From contig CALHDG010000032.1 in NCBI GenBank assembly GCA_938023075.1, positions 1 through 54,557 on the forward strand: a DNA stretch of 54,557 nt, in the 5' to 3' direction. This stretch comes from an uncultured Chitinophagales bacterium. Its GTDB lineage: Bacteria; Bacteroidota; Bacteroidia; Chitinophagales; JAHDHT01. A model generated the notes under the pieces. It made no database searches, had not been told where the DNA came from, and saw nothing but the letters and a program-made list of their open reading frames with translations. This document shows, one piece after another, positions 7,541 to 16,393 of the stretch (its first letter is position 1; every line of letters begins with the position of its first letter). A program made the translations under genes and the position numbers.

Positions 7541-8116
7541 ATGACGGCAAGTATTAACAAAGCAGATAAAGATCGAATATTTGAAGAAGAGTTTTTACCT
7601 CATATTGATTCTTTGTATAATTTCGCTTACCACCTTACCTATGCTGATGCCGATGCTAATGATTTGGTACAAGAAACCTTTTTAAAAGGCTATCGTTTTA
7701 TAGGTTCTTACGAAAAGGGAACTAATGCTAAGGCTTGGTTGTTTAAGATATTGAAGAATGCTTTTATTAACGAGTATCGAAAAAAGTCGAAACGACCCAC
7801 ACAAGTTGATTATGAAGAAATTGTTAGTTACCACGACACAGATGATACGTCTTATGTAGGAGTATCGGATTTACGGTTAGACATTTTTCAAGGGATGTTG
7901 GGTGATGAAATTACCAAAGCTTTAAATTCGTTACCTGTTGATTTTAAGACCGTTATTCTGTTGTGTGATATCGAAGATTTCACTTACGAAGAAATTGCTA
8001 AAATAATTGATATACCCATAGGCACGGTTCGATCAAGATTGCATCGTGCCCGTAATATGCTAAAAGAAAAATTAAAAGATTATGCTCAAAATTTAGGATA
8101 TAAAGAAAATCGCTAA
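7541..8116 (+). CDS. ECF-type RNA polymerase sigma factor
   Basis: This 191-residue protein directs RNA polymerase to a subset of promoters, probably for stress genes. Region 2 covers about residues 10-85 (PHIDSLYNFAYHLTYADADA, then LVQETFLKGYRF and WLFKILKNAFINEYRKK). Region 4 covers about residues 125-185 (ALNSLPVDFKTVILLCDIED, YEEIAKI, PIGTVRSRLHRARNML). The next gene, 7 bases downstream, looks like its anti-sigma partner. The start is the only ATG near region 2, and a good promoter lies directly before it. The PHIDxLYNFAY start is typical of a sigma group widespread in this phylum that pairs with small cytoplasmic anti-sigma proteins. Confidence 0.95.
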   Translation: MTASINKADKDRIFEEEFLPHIDSLYNFAYHLTYADADANDLVQETFLKGYRFIGSYEKGTNAKAWLFKILKNAFINEYRKKSKRPTQVDYEEIVSYHDTDDTSYVGVSDLRLDIFQGMLGDEITKALNSLPVDFKTVILLCDIEDFTYEEIAKIIDIPIGTVRSRLHRARNMLKEKLKDYAQNLGYKENR

Positions 8117-8123
8117 TAATAAA

Positions 8124-8393
8124 ATGGAACAAACAACAAATAAAAACGTAGCTAACTCACCTGAATTTATTGAACAAGTTCAATTAGCCATAGACGGAGC
8201 ACTCCGTCCTGATGAAGAAAATGATTTTTTCCATACCATAAATAACAATCCCCGTTGTTTAGAAAAATATTACAACGAACGCAAGTTTAAACAACTTATC
8301 CACCAAAGCGTTAACAGAAAATGTTGTAAAAAAGAAGCCTTAATACAACGCATAAAAAGCAACTTAAACGAAGATTTAAGAACACACGGCTAA
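8124..8393 (+). CDS. Probable anti-sigma factor (small, cytoplasmic)
   Basis: The product has 89 residues with no membrane segment or signal peptide. Its place right after the ECF sigma gene, and the layout of an N-terminal helix (QVQLAIDGALRPDEENDFF), a central NNNPRCLEKYYNERKFKQLIHQ and a C-terminal RKCCKKEALIQRIK, resemble the zinc-type (ZAS) anti-sigma proteins, in which His and Cys sense oxidative stress. Cysteines occur at NPRC and RKCC and a His at LIHQ; whether these form a true HxxxCxxC zinc site is not certain, because the canonical spacing is missing. The assignment rests mainly on gene order. Confidence 0.65.
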   Translation: MEQTTNKNVANSPEFIEQVQLAIDGALRPDEENDFFHTINNNPRCLEKYYNERKFKQLIHQSVNRKCCKKEALIQRIKSNLNEDLRTHG

Positions 8394-9396: not shown

Positions 9397-9963
9397 ATGA
9401 CTGAATATAAAAAGTTAACCGATGATGAATTAATACAGTTGATTTTATCAACCGGTGAACTGCATTATTTTGGCGAATTGTACGACAGATACTCGAATAA
9501 GGTGTTTAGAAAATGTTATGCTATGGTACAAAACGAGGCAGATGCTGAAGATTTGACACAAACCATATTAACCAAAACGATGCTCAACATTTCTAAGTTT
9601 AAAGGTAATTCCAGTTTTTCTACCTGGTTATTTAGAATTACCTATAATGCCTGTTTAGATCATTTTAGACTTAGAAAGAAAAAAAGAAAAATATTTACCG
9701 AAGACCTGAATATTGATATAACAGAAGTAGAGCAAACGGATGGTATTGAAGAAAAACAAAAATTAGAAATAGAATTAGGCAGAGTAAAAGAAATTTTTAA
9801 AGAGTTGGCAGATACCGACCGCATGCTTCTGATTATGAAATATCAAGATAGAATGACTGTTCCGGTAATTGCCGAAAGTTTAAACATATCAGAAAGTGCA
9901 GTAAAAATGCGCTTGCATCGTGCCAGAAAGCGAGTTTTGGATGCCTATAATGAGAAATTTTAA
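9397..9963 (+). CDS. ECF-type RNA polymerase sigma factor heading a five-gene operon
   Basis: This 188-residue sigma-70 family protein has region 2 at about residues 20-95 (YFGELYDRYSNKVFRKCYAM, DAEDLTQTIL, FSTWLFRITYNACLDHFR) and region 4 at about 130-183 (ADTDRMLLIMKYQDRMTVPV, then IAESLNISESAVKMRLHRAR). A strongly basic linker RLRKKKRK follows region 2. A TAAGTTTG box lies at 9344-9351. No anti-sigma gene follows; the four next genes are of unknown type, and one or more of the membrane proteins could control the sigma factor. It shares little with the sigma factor at 7541 outside the core motifs. Confidence 0.93.
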   Translation: MTEYKKLTDDELIQLILSTGELHYFGELYDRYSNKVFRKCYAMVQNEADAEDLTQTILTKTMLNISKFKGNSSFSTWLFRITYNACLDHFRLRKKKRKIFTEDLNIDITEVEQTDGIEEKQKLEIELGRVKEIFKELADTDRMLLIMKYQDRMTVPVIAESLNISESAVKMRLHRARKRVLDAYNEKF

Positions 9964-10052
9964 ACTCTAAATACTTGAACAGTTACTAATATTACTTTAA
10001 CAGTCTACATAATACTACTAAAAGTAAATATGGAGCATAAAAATTGCACTTG

Positions 10053-10220
10053 ATGGACTTAGAGAATTTATACAATGAAAAAGAGTTAACCCCAACCAAC
10101 AAAAAATCTTTTTTAAAATTTATAACCGGCCTCCAGCTTTTTGGAAGTATAGTAGAGTTATATACTGTTAAAGCTGTACAAACCGGCACCAAGTTAATTG
10201 AAACCGTTTTTAAAAAATAA
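10053..10220 (+). CDS. Small protein of 55 residues in the second sigma operon
   Basis: An ATG at 10053 opens 55 codons ending TAA at 10220. The peptide begins MDLENLYNEKELTPTNKK and has an amphipathic or weakly hydrophobic second half (FLKFITGLQLFGSIVELY, then TVKAVQTGTKLIETVFKK). It lies 89 bases after the sigma gene and 19 bases before the next gene, on the same strand. Its Lys/Glu-rich start with a hydrophobic helix is typical of real small proteins. No family is recognised. It may be a membrane-associated helper or a regulator of the operon. Confidence 0.6.
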   Translation: MDLENLYNEKELTPTNKKSFLKFITGLQLFGSIVELYTVKAVQTGTKLIETVFKK

Positions 10221-10239
10221 TATATTATAATAAATATTT

Positions 10240-10617
10240 ATGAGTAGAGTAATAGACTTTTTGATTATTCTTTTAATATTCGCAATTGTAGTGTTGGGTT
10301 TTTACTTTATAAACCAACAAGAAGCCATATTTAACCTTTTTGGCAAACAACATGCCACTTCTTTAGGTTATTTAACAGGAGGTTTTGGGTTGTTTGGTTT
10401 TATTTTGGGTACTTTCTTCACGGCAAGTTCGGCATTTAGAGGAAGAAAGAACAAAAGCGATCATAACAAAAAAGTATATGACTTAGAAAGACAATTAGAG
10501 GGTATGAAAATGAGTTTAGAAACCTTAAGCAGTACTTTGTTAAATACACCATCGCCAGAAAGTACAAAAGCCATTGACATTATTGAAGATACTTTGAAAG
10601 ATGATTTTAAAAACTAA
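10240..10617 (+). CDS. LapA-like two-helix membrane protein with coiled coil
   Basis: The product has 125 residues. Residues 5-24 (IDFLIILLIFAIVVLGFYFI) and about 42-62 (YLTGGFGLFGFILGTFF) are membrane segments, joined by a short loop NQQEAIFNLFGK. The C-terminal half is basic, then heptad-like (VYDLERQLEGMKMSLETLSS). Two helices with an NQQ-type loop and a cytoplasmic coiled coil match the overall plan of LapA/DUF1049 proteins, which in other bacteria take part in lipopolysaccharide assembly control. The similarity is one of plan, not of close sequence. It is the third gene of the operon that starts with the sigma factor at 9397. Confidence 0.65.
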   Translation: MSRVIDFLIILLIFAIVVLGFYFINQQEAIFNLFGKQHATSLGYLTGGFGLFGFILGTFFTASSAFRGRKNKSDHNKKVYDLERQLEGMKMSLETLSSTLLNTPSPESTKAIDIIEDTLKDDFKN

Positions 10618-10629
10618 AAATATTTATTG

Positions 10630-11580
10630 ATGGATCAAGAAAACCTGGAACAATTGAGTTCAGAAAAGAAAAGAGGCAAATTTTCTTCTATATTCGAAGC
10701 ATTAAAATTAAAGCATCTTATTTTATTTTTACTCTGTTTATTATTTCTCGGAATTTTGGTAAGTGGCGGTGGAAATAAGAAAGAACCACATCGTTTAGCG
10801 ATAAAGAAGAAAAAAGATCGAAACCACGCTGACAAGATTTCGAAAAAAACTAAACAGATTACCAATGCAGTAACCGAAAAAACTAAAGAAGGAGCGGAAA
10901 AAGCTAAATCTACTGCTACGGACTTGGTAGAAAAAACCAAAGAAGGATTGGATAAGGCAACTGCTACTGCCAAAGAAACCGCAATTGAACTTAAAGATAA
11001 AGCAGCAAAAACTGCTGGAAGTGCAAAGCAAAAGATAGAACAGAAAAAAAATATCAACGCTTCTTCAAATAAAAATGAAGAAATAACTGACATCAGTGGC
11101 ATAAGCAAAGATTCGGAAAATGAGGTTAGAGATATTGCTCAAATAGATAAAGCTAAAGAAGGTGAAAAATCAGGTTTTTTCAAAGACTTGTTTGGTAAAG
11201 ATAAAGCAAAAGAAGGCAACTGCGAATCAAAGAAATCTGCTACAGATAAAAAGGATAAAGATGATGAATCTCTTACCAATAAAAATAAAGACATAAAAAA
11301 GGAAACTAAGGCTTTGGCAGATAATCAATCGGCTAACAAAAAAACAGTTGGTAAAGTCGATAAAAAACCAAAAGAAACTAAGCAGCAAGAATCAAACTCT
11401 TCCGATGATCTATCAAAATTAGAGGCTGAAGTCAATTCGTTGAAACAAGAAATAGAACAACTAAGTAGTCAAGTAAAAAATTCTCAAAACGGCAAAGCTT
11501 CATCTGAAAATGATATTAATACTATTGAAGAGAGAATTAAGTTTTGGCAAAAAATGAAAGAACAAGTCAATTCTTTTTAA
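10630..11580 (+). CDS. Membrane-anchored LEA-like 11-mer repeat protein
   Basis: This Lys/Glu-rich protein has 316 residues. A single membrane segment (HLILFLLCLLFLGILVSGGG) lies near residues 29-48. Residues 82-136 form five near-perfect 11-residue units (TEKTKEGAEKA, KSTATDLVEKT, KEGLDKATATA, KETAIELKDKA, AKTAGSAKQKI), the period found in group 3 LEA and apolipoprotein-type helices, which protect membranes and proteins during drying or freezing. The motif DKAKEG occurs twice later, around FFKDLFGKDK. The last 60 residues are a coiled coil (LEAEVNSLKQEIEQLSSQV). The ATG at 10630 is preferred to a TTG three bases before it. The protective role is inferred from composition only. Confidence 0.75.
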   Translation: MDQENLEQLSSEKKRGKFSSIFEALKLKHLILFLLCLLFLGILVSGGGNKKEPHRLAIKKKKDRNHADKISKKTKQITNAVTEKTKEGAEKAKSTATDLVEKTKEGLDKATATAKETAIELKDKAAKTAGSAKQKIEQKKNINASSNKNEEITDISGISKDSENEVRDIAQIDKAKEGEKSGFFKDLFGKDKAKEGNCESKKSATDKKDKDDESLTNKNKDIKKETKALADNQSANKKTVGKVDKKPKETKQQESNSSDDLSKLEAEVNSLKQEIEQLSSQVKNSQNGKASSENDINTIEERIKFWQKMKEQVNSF

Positions 11581-11605
11581 ATTTGTAACCTAAAAAAATA
11601 ATAAT

Positions 11606-12715
11606 TTGAAATATATAGAAGTCGATTCGTTTAAAAACTTACCCATCATTAAATTAGCCTCTTTAGATGATTTCGTAAACTTAATTGCCGAATACAGTCC
11701 TAAGCACTTGTTTACCAAGGTTGAATCATCAGATAATGAAAAAGCGGAAGCCGAAAAAACCGATTTTTTCTCCAGGACGAAAGGTTTAATCAATTCAGTA
11801 GCCGGTGGCGGCACCAAAACCGAATTTTATTTTGTAGAAGATAACACTGTGTATGCCGTTAGTGGCAATGGCTACAAAAATTTGGAAGACTACAACAAAG
11901 GGGTTGCCGCAAAATTTCAAAGTGGTGATGAGTATTATGCTTCTTTAGATGGAGGTTATGCCAATTATGAGGAATATAAAGAAAGCCTAAGCGATGGCTT
12001 TAGCAATAAAGAAGAATTTGAAAAGGCTAAAAATACGGGCTTTATTGGTGGTGTAGCAAAATTGAACGCTGCCAAAATGGCTGGCGATTTAAAGGATGCC
12101 TACTACAGCAAAGTTAAAAATATTAAAAAAGACGGTGATTTATATCGTTATGCCCGTAAATCAGGCTACGAAAGTTTTGTTGAGTTTAAAGAAGCTATTT
12201 TTGCAGGATATGTTGGTAAAAATGTAGAGGAATACCGCACTGCTCAACAAAGTGGTTTTGGTGATGCCCAAGCTTACGAAGCGGCTAAAGATGGTAATTT
12301 TGAAAATCCAACTGATTTTCAAGCAGCCAGCAGTCTTAATATAGATAGCAAAGCTATATATGATCGTTATAAACAATTAGAAGAAATTAGACATGCAAAC
12401 AGCTATGGTTTCTTAGACCAAGCTAATATATACGAATTGCTTAAAAACTTAGATAGTGGTAAACTCATTTCGTTCGGCAAACTATCAGAACGTTTAAAAG
12501 AATCACAAAGTAGTGTAAAATCTAAAATACCAAGCAATACCAAAGATTGGTTGAACGTAAAAATCACTAAATTAATGAAGGTGAATTCTTTACCAGAATG
12601 GTATACTACTTCTTTTAAAACCAGTGAAGAGCTAAAAGCCTTTGTTATTAACGATGAGCACGTTCAAAAATTAGGCGAATACGATCAAAACAGCGATGTA
12701 TTTATTCGCAACTAA
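11606..12715 (+). CDS. Protein built of 14-residue repeats, last gene of the sigma operon
   Basis: The product has 369 residues with a TTG start; no ATG is available before residue 158 and the frame closes 15 bases upstream. From about residue 90 to 262 it consists of degenerate 14-residue units of the form [FY]xxxxE[YF]xxAxxxG, for example YANYEEYKESLSDG, FSNKEEFEKAKNTG, YESFVEFKEAIFAG and FGDAQAYEAAKDGN. I do not recognise this repeat as a named family. The N terminus (residues 1-85) and the C terminus (about 270-369, with a helical SSVKSKIPSNTKDWLNVK) are distinct domains. There is no signal peptide, so a cytoplasmic location is expected. A strong terminator follows at 12751. The function is unknown. 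Confidence 0.8.
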   Translation: MKYIEVDSFKNLPIIKLASLDDFVNLIAEYSPKHLFTKVESSDNEKAEAEKTDFFSRTKGLINSVAGGGTKTEFYFVEDNTVYAVSGNGYKNLEDYNKGVAAKFQSGDEYYASLDGGYANYEEYKESLSDGFSNKEEFEKAKNTGFIGGVAKLNAAKMAGDLKDAYYSKVKNIKKDGDLYRYARKSGYESFVEFKEAIFAGYVGKNVEEYRTAQQSGFGDAQAYEAAKDGNFENPTDFQAASSLNIDSKAIYDRYKQLEEIRHANSYGFLDQANIYELLKNLDSGKLISFGKLSERLKESQSSVKSKIPSNTKDWLNVKITKLMKVNSLPEWYTTSFKTSEELKAFVINDEHVQKLGEYDQNSDVFIRN

Positions 12716-12750
12716 TTATCAATTTACAATTAGTATAATTTATTATATAG

Positions 12751-12787
12751 GCGAAATCCCGTTTTAAGCGGGATTTTTCGCTATTTT
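12751..12787 (+). terminator. Rho-independent terminator of the sigma operon
   Basis: The stem GCGAAATCCCG pairs with CGGGATTTTTCGC around the loop TTTTAAG, followed by a short T-rich tail. It lies 35 bases after the stop codon of the 14-residue-repeat gene. Confidence 0.85.
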
Positions 12788-12930: not shown

Positions 12931-13527
12931 ATGAATAATTTAATTGAACAATTAGGTTCTGTTTTAATGAACCAAAACAGTGTTGAGCAAATTAGCCGGC
13001 AAGTAGGTTTGGATAATAATCAAACCCAAAACGTTTTAGGACAGGCTATCCCTGCTATTTTAAGTGGTTTGCTTAGAAACTCGAAACAGCAAAGTGGCTT
13101 GGCAGATTTATTTGGTGCTTTAGTAAAAGACCATGATGGTGGCATTTTGGGGCAGATGGGTGATTTAATTCAAAATCCGGGTTTAGCAAAAGGAGATGGA
13201 ATGTTAGGACATATTTTGGGCAACAAAAGAGCTACCTTGCAAAATCAAATTGGTCAATCTAACGGAATTGATATGCAAAAAATAGCGAAAATTTTCGCCA
13301 TTGCGGCACCAATTATTATGGGTGTTATTGGCAAACAACGCCGTCAAAACGATTGGAACATGTCAGGTTTATCAGATGCCTTAACCAAAACTAATCAAAA
13401 TTTCAGGCAAAAAAACGAACGGGAAATGGGTTTAATTGAACGAATGTTAGATGCAGACAACGATGGTTCAATTAGTGATGATATTGCAGGCATAGGAGCC
13501 AATATTTTGAAGAATTGGTTAACCTGA
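12931..13527 (+). CDS. DUF937 family protein with an EF-hand-like loop
   Basis: This protein has 198 residues. The DUF937 region spans about residues 1-155, with the typical IGLDNNQTQNVLGQAIPAI-like helix pair (here VGLDNNQTQNVLGQAIPAI), Gly/Leu-rich turns and a hydrophobic helix IAKIFAIAAPIIMGVIG at 118-134. Near the C terminus DADNDGSISDD (residues 174-184) has the DxDxDG calcium loop of EF-hand/dockerin type, though position 12 is not acidic. No signal peptide is seen. Family members are of unknown function. The gene stands alone between two terminators. Confidence 0.8.
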   Translation: MNNLIEQLGSVLMNQNSVEQISRQVGLDNNQTQNVLGQAIPAILSGLLRNSKQQSGLADLFGALVKDHDGGILGQMGDLIQNPGLAKGDGMLGHILGNKRATLQNQIGQSNGIDMQKIAKIFAIAAPIIMGVIGKQRRQNDWNMSGLSDALTKTNQNFRQKNEREMGLIERMLDADNDGSISDDIAGIGANILKNWLT

Positions 13528-15579: not shown

Positions 15580-15799
15580 AAGAAATACGTTTTATTGTTG
15601 ATAAATGTACTAAAAAAAAATTAGTCACTAAACTTCTTCTTCTTATGCTAATCTAAGTAACAGTAAGTTATTTTTATTTAAATTCTATCCATTTTATACT
15701 ACAAAACCAAAGCTAAGGTGACCTTACCTTTTCAAAAAGTCCTAAAAAAAAGTTAGTTAATATTAATAAATAATAAATCAAACAAAATTTTATAAAAAT

Positions 15800-16393
15800 A
15801 TGAGAAATATTTTGATGTTAGCAGTGTGCATGTTATGTGGTGCTGTTTTATTTGCTCAAACAACCCAACCTACACAAGCAAGACCAGGTGTTAAACAAGT
15901 GGAGGAAAAAAAACCAACTATGCAGACACCGGCTAAACCTGCAGTAAAAACGCCAGCTAAACCAGCTGTAGAGAAACCAAGCATGAAAATGCCCGAAAAG
16001 CCAAAAATGCCGGCTAAACCTGCAAAACCAGCTAAGCCTGCAAAACCCAAAATGCCGAAAATGAATATGCCGAAATTACCAGGAGCCAACATTTTAAAAA
16101 GTGCTGGTATTGATAACTTAAGCAAGTCTTTAAAAGATATGGGTATTGGTAAAAAAGAGGCTGATGCTATTTCTTTAAAAAATTTGGACCTACTTAAAAA
16201 AGTAGGCAACTTAGTTAAAGATGGTAACGGAGATTGGAAGAATGCTTTAAAAGAAGTAAAAGGTTTAAACAAAAGCAACCTTAAAGACATTAAAGGAATG
16301 TTAACCAAAGATCAACTAAAGCAATACAAGCCAATGGCAAAAAAGATATGGACAGCTGTCAAGGACTTTTTATTAAAAGCCTTGAAGAAATAA
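15800..16393 (+). CDS. Secreted Pro/Lys/Ala-rich protein
   Basis: The product has 197 residues. The signal peptide MRNILMLAVCMLCGAVLFAQ is followed by a low-complexity region (about residues 30-95) of repeated KPA, KMP and PAK units, then a Lys-rich helical domain (LPGANILKSAGI ... DNLSKSLKDMGIGKKEADAI ... LTKDQLKQYKPMAKKIW). Such a basic, Pro-rich linker may bind the acidic cell surface or peptidoglycan. No family is recognised. A terminator follows 22 bases after the stop codon. The repeats could vary in number between strains. Confidence 0.75.
   Translation: MRNILMLAVCMLCGAVLFAQTTQPTQARPGVKQVEEKKPTMQTPAKPAVKTPAKPAVEKPSMKMPEKPKMPAKPAKPAKPAKPKMPKMNMPKLPGANILKSAGIDNLSKSLKDMGIGKKEADAISLKNLDLLKKVGNLVKDGNGDWKNALKEVKGLNKSNLKDIKGMLTKDQLKQYKPMAKKIWTAVKDFLLKALKK

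Follow-up and report, generated by a model that had tools for sequence, protein, structure and literature searches.

A SigX-like ECF sigma factor gene and a candidate peptide-LapA-LEA-like-repeat operon in an uncultured Chitinophagales bacterium

Which protein restrains an extracytoplasmic function (ECF) sigma factor, and which genes does the factor control, when no gene that follows it encodes an anti-sigma domain recognisable with Pfam or NCBIfam? The question is raised by five genes on contig C32 (CALHDG010000032.1) of an uncultured Chitinophagales bacterium, whose 6.1-Mb genome is 97% complete. The contig was analysed over its full 54,557 nucleotides and is referred to here as the window. 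An earlier note, made from the sequence alone, had described the genes as an undescribed stress operon in which membrane, late embryogenesis abundant (LEA)-like and repeat proteins form a protective layer during water loss, with one of the membrane proteins holding the sigma factor inactive. The unit is real and previously undescribed, and an envelope-related function, as the note had proposed, is supported. As judged from sequence, it is best read as a variant of the SigX-type non-canonical ECF systems.

All parts of the unit lie on the plus strand. The first gene (gene 1; 9397..9963) encodes a 188-residue protein that the Pfam profiles Sigma70_r2 (E 4e-17) and r4_2 (E 5e-12) identify as an ECF sigma factor limited to regions 2 and 4. 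It is followed by gene 2 (10053..10220), which encodes a 55-residue CfrX-like peptide, a putative anti-sigma factor; an alternative TTG start at 10044 would extend it to 58 residues. Gene 3 (10240..10617) encodes a 125-residue, two-helix inner-membrane protein that belongs to the LapA_dom family (PF06305, 30.4 bits against a Pfam cut-off of 28). Gene 4 (10630..11580) encodes a 316-residue protein that is anchored in the membrane, carries LEA-like 11-mers and has a coiled coil at its C-terminus, features assigned from periodicity and homologues. Gene 5 (11606..12715) starts with TTG and encodes a 369-residue cytoplasmic protein, for which repeat periodicity and a structural model indicate an alpha/beta domain at the N-terminus, helical repeats of 14 residues and a C-terminus resembling a winged helix. 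Genes 2, 4 and 5 have no family match in Pfam or NCBIfam, and none of genes 2-5 matches a membrane or zinc anti-sigma domain there. An intrinsic terminator with an 11-bp stem and a T run closes the unit (12753..12777). The same-strand arrangement, short gaps, strong terminator, leading ECF factor and LapA-like protein are all as the earlier note described them. The gaps between the open reading frames (ORFs) are 89, 19, 12 and 25 nt in gene order, and the widest, directly 3' of the sigma gene, holds a candidate sigma-dependent promoter for genes 2-5 (GTTAC-N15-AGTCT; 9982..10006). Because this 89-nt gap carries a candidate promoter, the unit probably consists of the sigma gene and a four-gene target operon and is not one simple five-gene transcript. 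Sigma70-like promoters were also considered in the region and rejected, their count being no higher than in shuffled sequence.

The unit was compared with that of a sister-genus genome, G001, a Chitinophagales metagenome-assembled genome (MAG; JAHDHT01), and family f1 is represented here by this genome and the window genome only. G001 carries all five genes in an order identical to that of the window, with identities of 69% for the sigma factor, 44% for the peptide, 53% for the LapA protein, 32% for the LEA-like protein and 69% for the repeat protein. Downstream, the flanking genes of G001 differ from those of the window, and the G001 contig stops immediately ahead of the sigma gene. We conclude that the unit is real and conserved, since the five-gene order is kept beside different downstream flanks, and the proposal that the sigma factor and the four other genes belong together holds.

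Outside family f1, a fixed five-gene operon was rejected as a general rule. A search of genome contigs with the gene 5 sequence alone gave no match; an alignment search of contigs found eight loci, all on MAG contigs with JAHD accessions. Six of the 20 genomes of family f12, which belongs to the same order as f1, have a gene 5 that carries no additional domain, and in most of them it lies inside a longer same-strand cluster. This cluster comprises gene 5, a lipoprotein gene, a LapA gene, omp1, a DUF6089-type gene, an OmpA gene and a gene-4 homologue whose product has an N-terminal anchor like that of window gene 4. In two genomes of one genus (G138 and G154) the order is omp1, DUF6089-type gene, gene 5. 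Only one f12 genome, G122, has an ECF sigma operon (sigma factor, 99-residue peptide and MscS-like channel) directly upstream. Conserved gene order with the sigma factor, which the earlier note had looked to as support, is therefore fixed in f1 but not in f12, where genes 3-5 usually lie away from a sigma gene, though gene 5, gene 4 and their neighbours share a promoter motif.

The identity of the sigma factor is clearer when its relatives are considered. Gene 1 and its nearest sigma factors form a clade of 22 sampled members with support of 100/98, and seven other ECF factors fall outside it. The best NCBIfam equivalog for gene 1 is the SigX model PRK09640, which it matches with 96 bits, below the cut-off of 194; other clade members reach up to 108 bits. 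A short peptide gene (55-104 residues) comes next in 19 of the 22 clade members, and the operons of 16 include a gene for an MscS-like PF05552 channel, the domain having been confirmed by Pfam in two of the channel proteins and the others having been assigned by similarity. A canonical unit of this kind, comprising a sigma factor, a 58-residue peptide and an MscS-like channel, is also present in the window genome, on contig C112 (L082). It shares the sigma clade of the window unit and has a peptide gene at the equivalent place, but it includes the MscS gene and lacks genes 3-5 altogether. In the window unit the LapA-like, LEA-like and repeat genes occupy the place of the MscS gene. A third sigma gene of the clade in the window genome (L088, G000:C176, 8927-9502) has no peptide or channel gene adjacent.

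Profile comparisons place the window 55-residue ORF in the peptide family of this sigma clade. With a profile that excluded the window peptide and its G001 orthologue, the ORF came out on top among the window's 397 ORFs (E 0.0034); a profile of the closest subfamily matched it with an E-value of 1.3e-5. The L082 peptide belongs to a different subgroup. Most clade operons pair the sigma gene with a peptide gene and have no LapA or LEA-like gene alongside. Because the peptide family follows the sigma gene so regularly, and mostly in operons of that kind, the 55-residue peptide is likely to be the restraining partner of the sigma factor, in place of the membrane protein that the earlier note had favoured.

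The candidate promoter before gene 2 is one instance of a motif, GTGAC/GTTAC-N15-[AC]GTC, which has a spacer of N17 in some genomes. Across 394 kb of sigma-clade and gene-5 loci the motif occurs 14 times against 2.8 expected, with enrichment at spacer 15 only, and GTGAC is the most over-represented of all 1024 pentamers at that distance (11 against 0.55). The motif precedes the peptide gene in the window and in G001 (L006, 8486-8510, minus strand), and it precedes gene 5 in each of the three f12 genomes whose upstream region is complete. It also stands before omp1, gene-4 homologues and three sigma genes. Sites before sigma or peptide genes of the clade are found in the window, G001, L076, L078, L081, L084 and L086.

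A total of 49 motif sites are present in the two f1 genomes, 29 of them in the window genome. The variants differ in position: 10 of the 11 GTGAC sites fall between genes, as against 3 of the 19 GTAAC sites (p 9e-5, for a comparison picked after the sites were seen), and the mostly intragenic GTAAC variants were treated as background. In both f1 genomes an intergenic site lies ahead of mscL and of a gene for a DUF3078-type outer-membrane protein. DinB-like genes have the motif directly before the start in both genomes as well (L129, 1545-2120; L130, 1527-2129), and their products are 27% identical, so that orthology is unsure. In G001 the motif also stands before omp1 and an OmpA gene, and in f12 before omp1; omp1 was not found in the window genome. 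Within the window, a second candidate site (GTGAC-N15-AGTCC; 15718..15742, plus strand) is intergenic and lies 57 nt upstream of a gene (15800..16393, plus strand) for a 197-residue Pro/Lys/Ala-rich protein. This protein has a signal-like N-terminus and no Pfam family; with its ORF and the motif upstream, it is a candidate secreted member of the regulon.

The f1 observation on mscL was followed up on new loci by seeking the gene in 30 other genomes, and 25 copies were examined. GTGAC lies within 130 nt upstream of mscL in 14 of 17 copies in f12 and in none of 8 in other families (p 1.5e-4, a value that is optimistic since some genomes share a genus). When the -10 element was included, the loci of f1 and f12 together gave five matches with spacer 15 and seven with spacer 17, against about 0.2 expected for each. 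The motif is thus common, at the level of sequence, to peptide, sigma, gene-4, gene-5, outer-membrane and mscL genes. In the literature collection searched, no work was found that describes ECF102 factors in Bacteroidota or an ECF factor controlling mscL in this phylum.

The explanation that we favour, with a confidence somewhat above even, is that the operon is a SigX-type non-canonical ECF envelope system in which a peptide restrains the sigma factor and shared promoters define a regulon that includes mscL. The CfrX-like peptide would hold the sigma factor in check, probably on the inner membrane, and altered membrane tension or fluidity would release it. We infer that the free sigma factor initiates transcription at GTGAC/GTTAC-N15-[AC]GTC promoters. 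Its targets would be its own peptide-LapA-LEA-repeat operon and, elsewhere in the genome, mscL and the outer-membrane protein gene. MscL would relieve turgor, while the anchored LapA-like and LEA-like proteins and the cytoplasmic repeat protein may remodel the membrane on its inner face or buffer it there. The operon would then be a compact form of a conserved envelope and turgor regulon in uncultured Bacteroidota.

The closest known counterpart is the SigX-CfrX-CmpX(-OprF) system of Pseudomonas aeruginosa, of the ECF102 'mechanosensing' class. There, CfrX (84 residues) is a putative anti-sigma factor, cfrX-cmpX has a SigX-dependent promoter, and the system answers membrane alteration and cold shock (PMC7641640, PMC8999054). 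According to a 2022 review, Pseudomonas SigX is the sole studied ECF factor with a mechanosensing mechanism (PMC8999054). In both systems the ECF gene adjoins a gene for a small soluble protein, a promoter or candidate promoter stands directly before that gene, and most members of the sigma clade have an MscS-like PF05552 channel gene. Outer-membrane or OmpA genes in the regulon, here predicted from the motif, may be a further likeness. CfrX and the window peptide are alike in gene position and length, the two properties by which they were compared. The systems differ in phylum, in the LapA, LEA-like and repeat genes that the window unit has instead of a channel gene, in the presence of mscL in the predicted Bacteroidota regulon and in the score of the window sigma factor, which is below the NCBIfam SigX cut-off. 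A plasmid collection searched for a Pseudomonas SigX/CmpX reference gave no useful match. We do not class the unit as a SigX/ECF102 member, because the channel gene is absent and the likeness to SigX/CfrX is one of layout. A broader proposal, which we hold at slightly less than even confidence, is that Bacteroidota possess an ECF class with a CfrX-like, tension-responsive peptide switch that places MscS- and MscL-type channels under one conserved promoter, and that here the MscS gene has been exchanged for a new module for membrane protection, one part of which is a repeat-RNase derivative that has no nuclease. The Bacteroidota systems add a second lineage from a different phylum, with numerous peptide variants, a defined promoter motif and a small predicted regulon including mscL, and so open the question of how CfrX and the channel control SigX to comparative tests. 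Three orphan protein families also gain a likely context.

The part assigned here to gene 5 has a competitor. The 14-residue period noticed earlier is significant in both repeat blocks (z 3.4 and 3.0), and the AlphaFold model (pLDDT, the predicted local distance difference test, 80) has helical repeats and a winged-helix-like end. NYN (Zc3h12a-like) RNase proteins with 14-residue repeats, from other Bacteroidota, share homology with gene 5 in the N-terminal domain, in the repeats and in the stretch that follows them. Other members of the order and class encode gene-5 homologues in longer frames; in all seven that were examined from outside f1 and f12, the C-terminus is an RNase_Zc3h12a NYN domain, assigned by Pfam in three and by eye in four. 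In f1 and f12 Pfam finds no NYN nuclease domain in gene 5, the frame stopping before it. Gene 5 derives from repeat proteins that elsewhere carry a C-terminal RNase domain. It could accordingly be an RNase leftover with an RNA-binding or translation-linked, post-transcriptional function and no part in membrane protection, which we consider rather unlikely, though an RNA-related role is possible on the model and is compatible with the favoured explanation. The fused homologues and the winged-helix-like C-terminus point in that direction, as does the resemblance of the N-terminus to ribosomal eL38; these winged-helix and eL38-like matches, the only ones from further fold comparison, have Z-scores below 6, which are common among unrelated folds, and the nuclease domain itself is gone. 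Foldseek gave no match to the model at E 0.001, and a PDB sequence search with gene 5 gave no significant match. The NYN-RNase-fused relatives (L029-L035, L108) are often preceded by a gene for a conserved protein of about 370 residues with no convincing Pfam family.

A second competitor concerns who reads the motif, and here several observations weigh against the favoured explanation. The motif, as GTNAC-N15-[AC]GTC, was first spotted by eye in upstream regions and tested afterwards, and the genomes are related and hence are not independent samples. In the nearest sigma subgroup, sites stand before just three of six sigma genes. The MscS-like gene that typifies the class is absent from the window and G001 units. 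Enrichment at spacers 15 and 17 but not at 16 suggests that two factors are at work or that the regulator is a different one. The motif could be bound by some other ECF factor or by a protein that recognises dyads, leaving the window sigma factor to control its own operon only or something else. Each genome compared has several paralogous sigma factors, and GTGAC-N-GTCAC-like dyads occur in two mscL upstream regions (L171, L181). Most of the -10 elements are not complementary to GTGAC, however, CGTC is a usual ECF -10 element, and the motif stands before sigma or peptide genes of this very clade. We consider this alternative improbable; the two spacers may instead reflect two paralogous sigma subgroups.

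For gene 4 the 11-residue period gives a mixed picture, being strong in the G001 orthologue (z 13.4) and weak in the window (z 2.0). Its candidate amphipathic repeats, rich in K, T, E and A, are like those of Group 3 LEA proteins, from which it differs in its membrane anchor and C-terminal coiled coil. A desiccation or salt operon, in which the LEA-like and repeat proteins would form a shielding layer and either the LapA or the LEA protein would serve as a membrane anti-sigma factor, would draw on this periodicity and on a LEA_2-type lipoprotein gene that follows the gene-4 homologue in one f12 genome (L100, 13762-14226), but it is very unlikely given that gene 4 and its homologues match no Pfam LEA family, that most sigma-clade operons have the peptide and neither a LapA nor a LEA gene, and that channels and outer-membrane proteins are prominent in the predicted regulon. 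With outer-membrane genes such as OmpA alongside mscL and MscS, that regulon points towards turgor or tension in the membrane, and the desiccation layer of the earlier note is left unsupported.

Gene 3 resembles LapA/YciS proteins in its family, and differs from them in that it sits in an ECF operon and not next to lapB. Just past the terminator is a DUF937 gene (12931-13527), which has no counterpart next to the G001 unit. The stretch 7541-8393, two genes upstream of the unit, holds another ECF sigma gene, of a different type, followed by a gene for an 89-residue protein resembling the RsrA anti-sigma factor (TIGR03988, E 4e-6, below cut-off).

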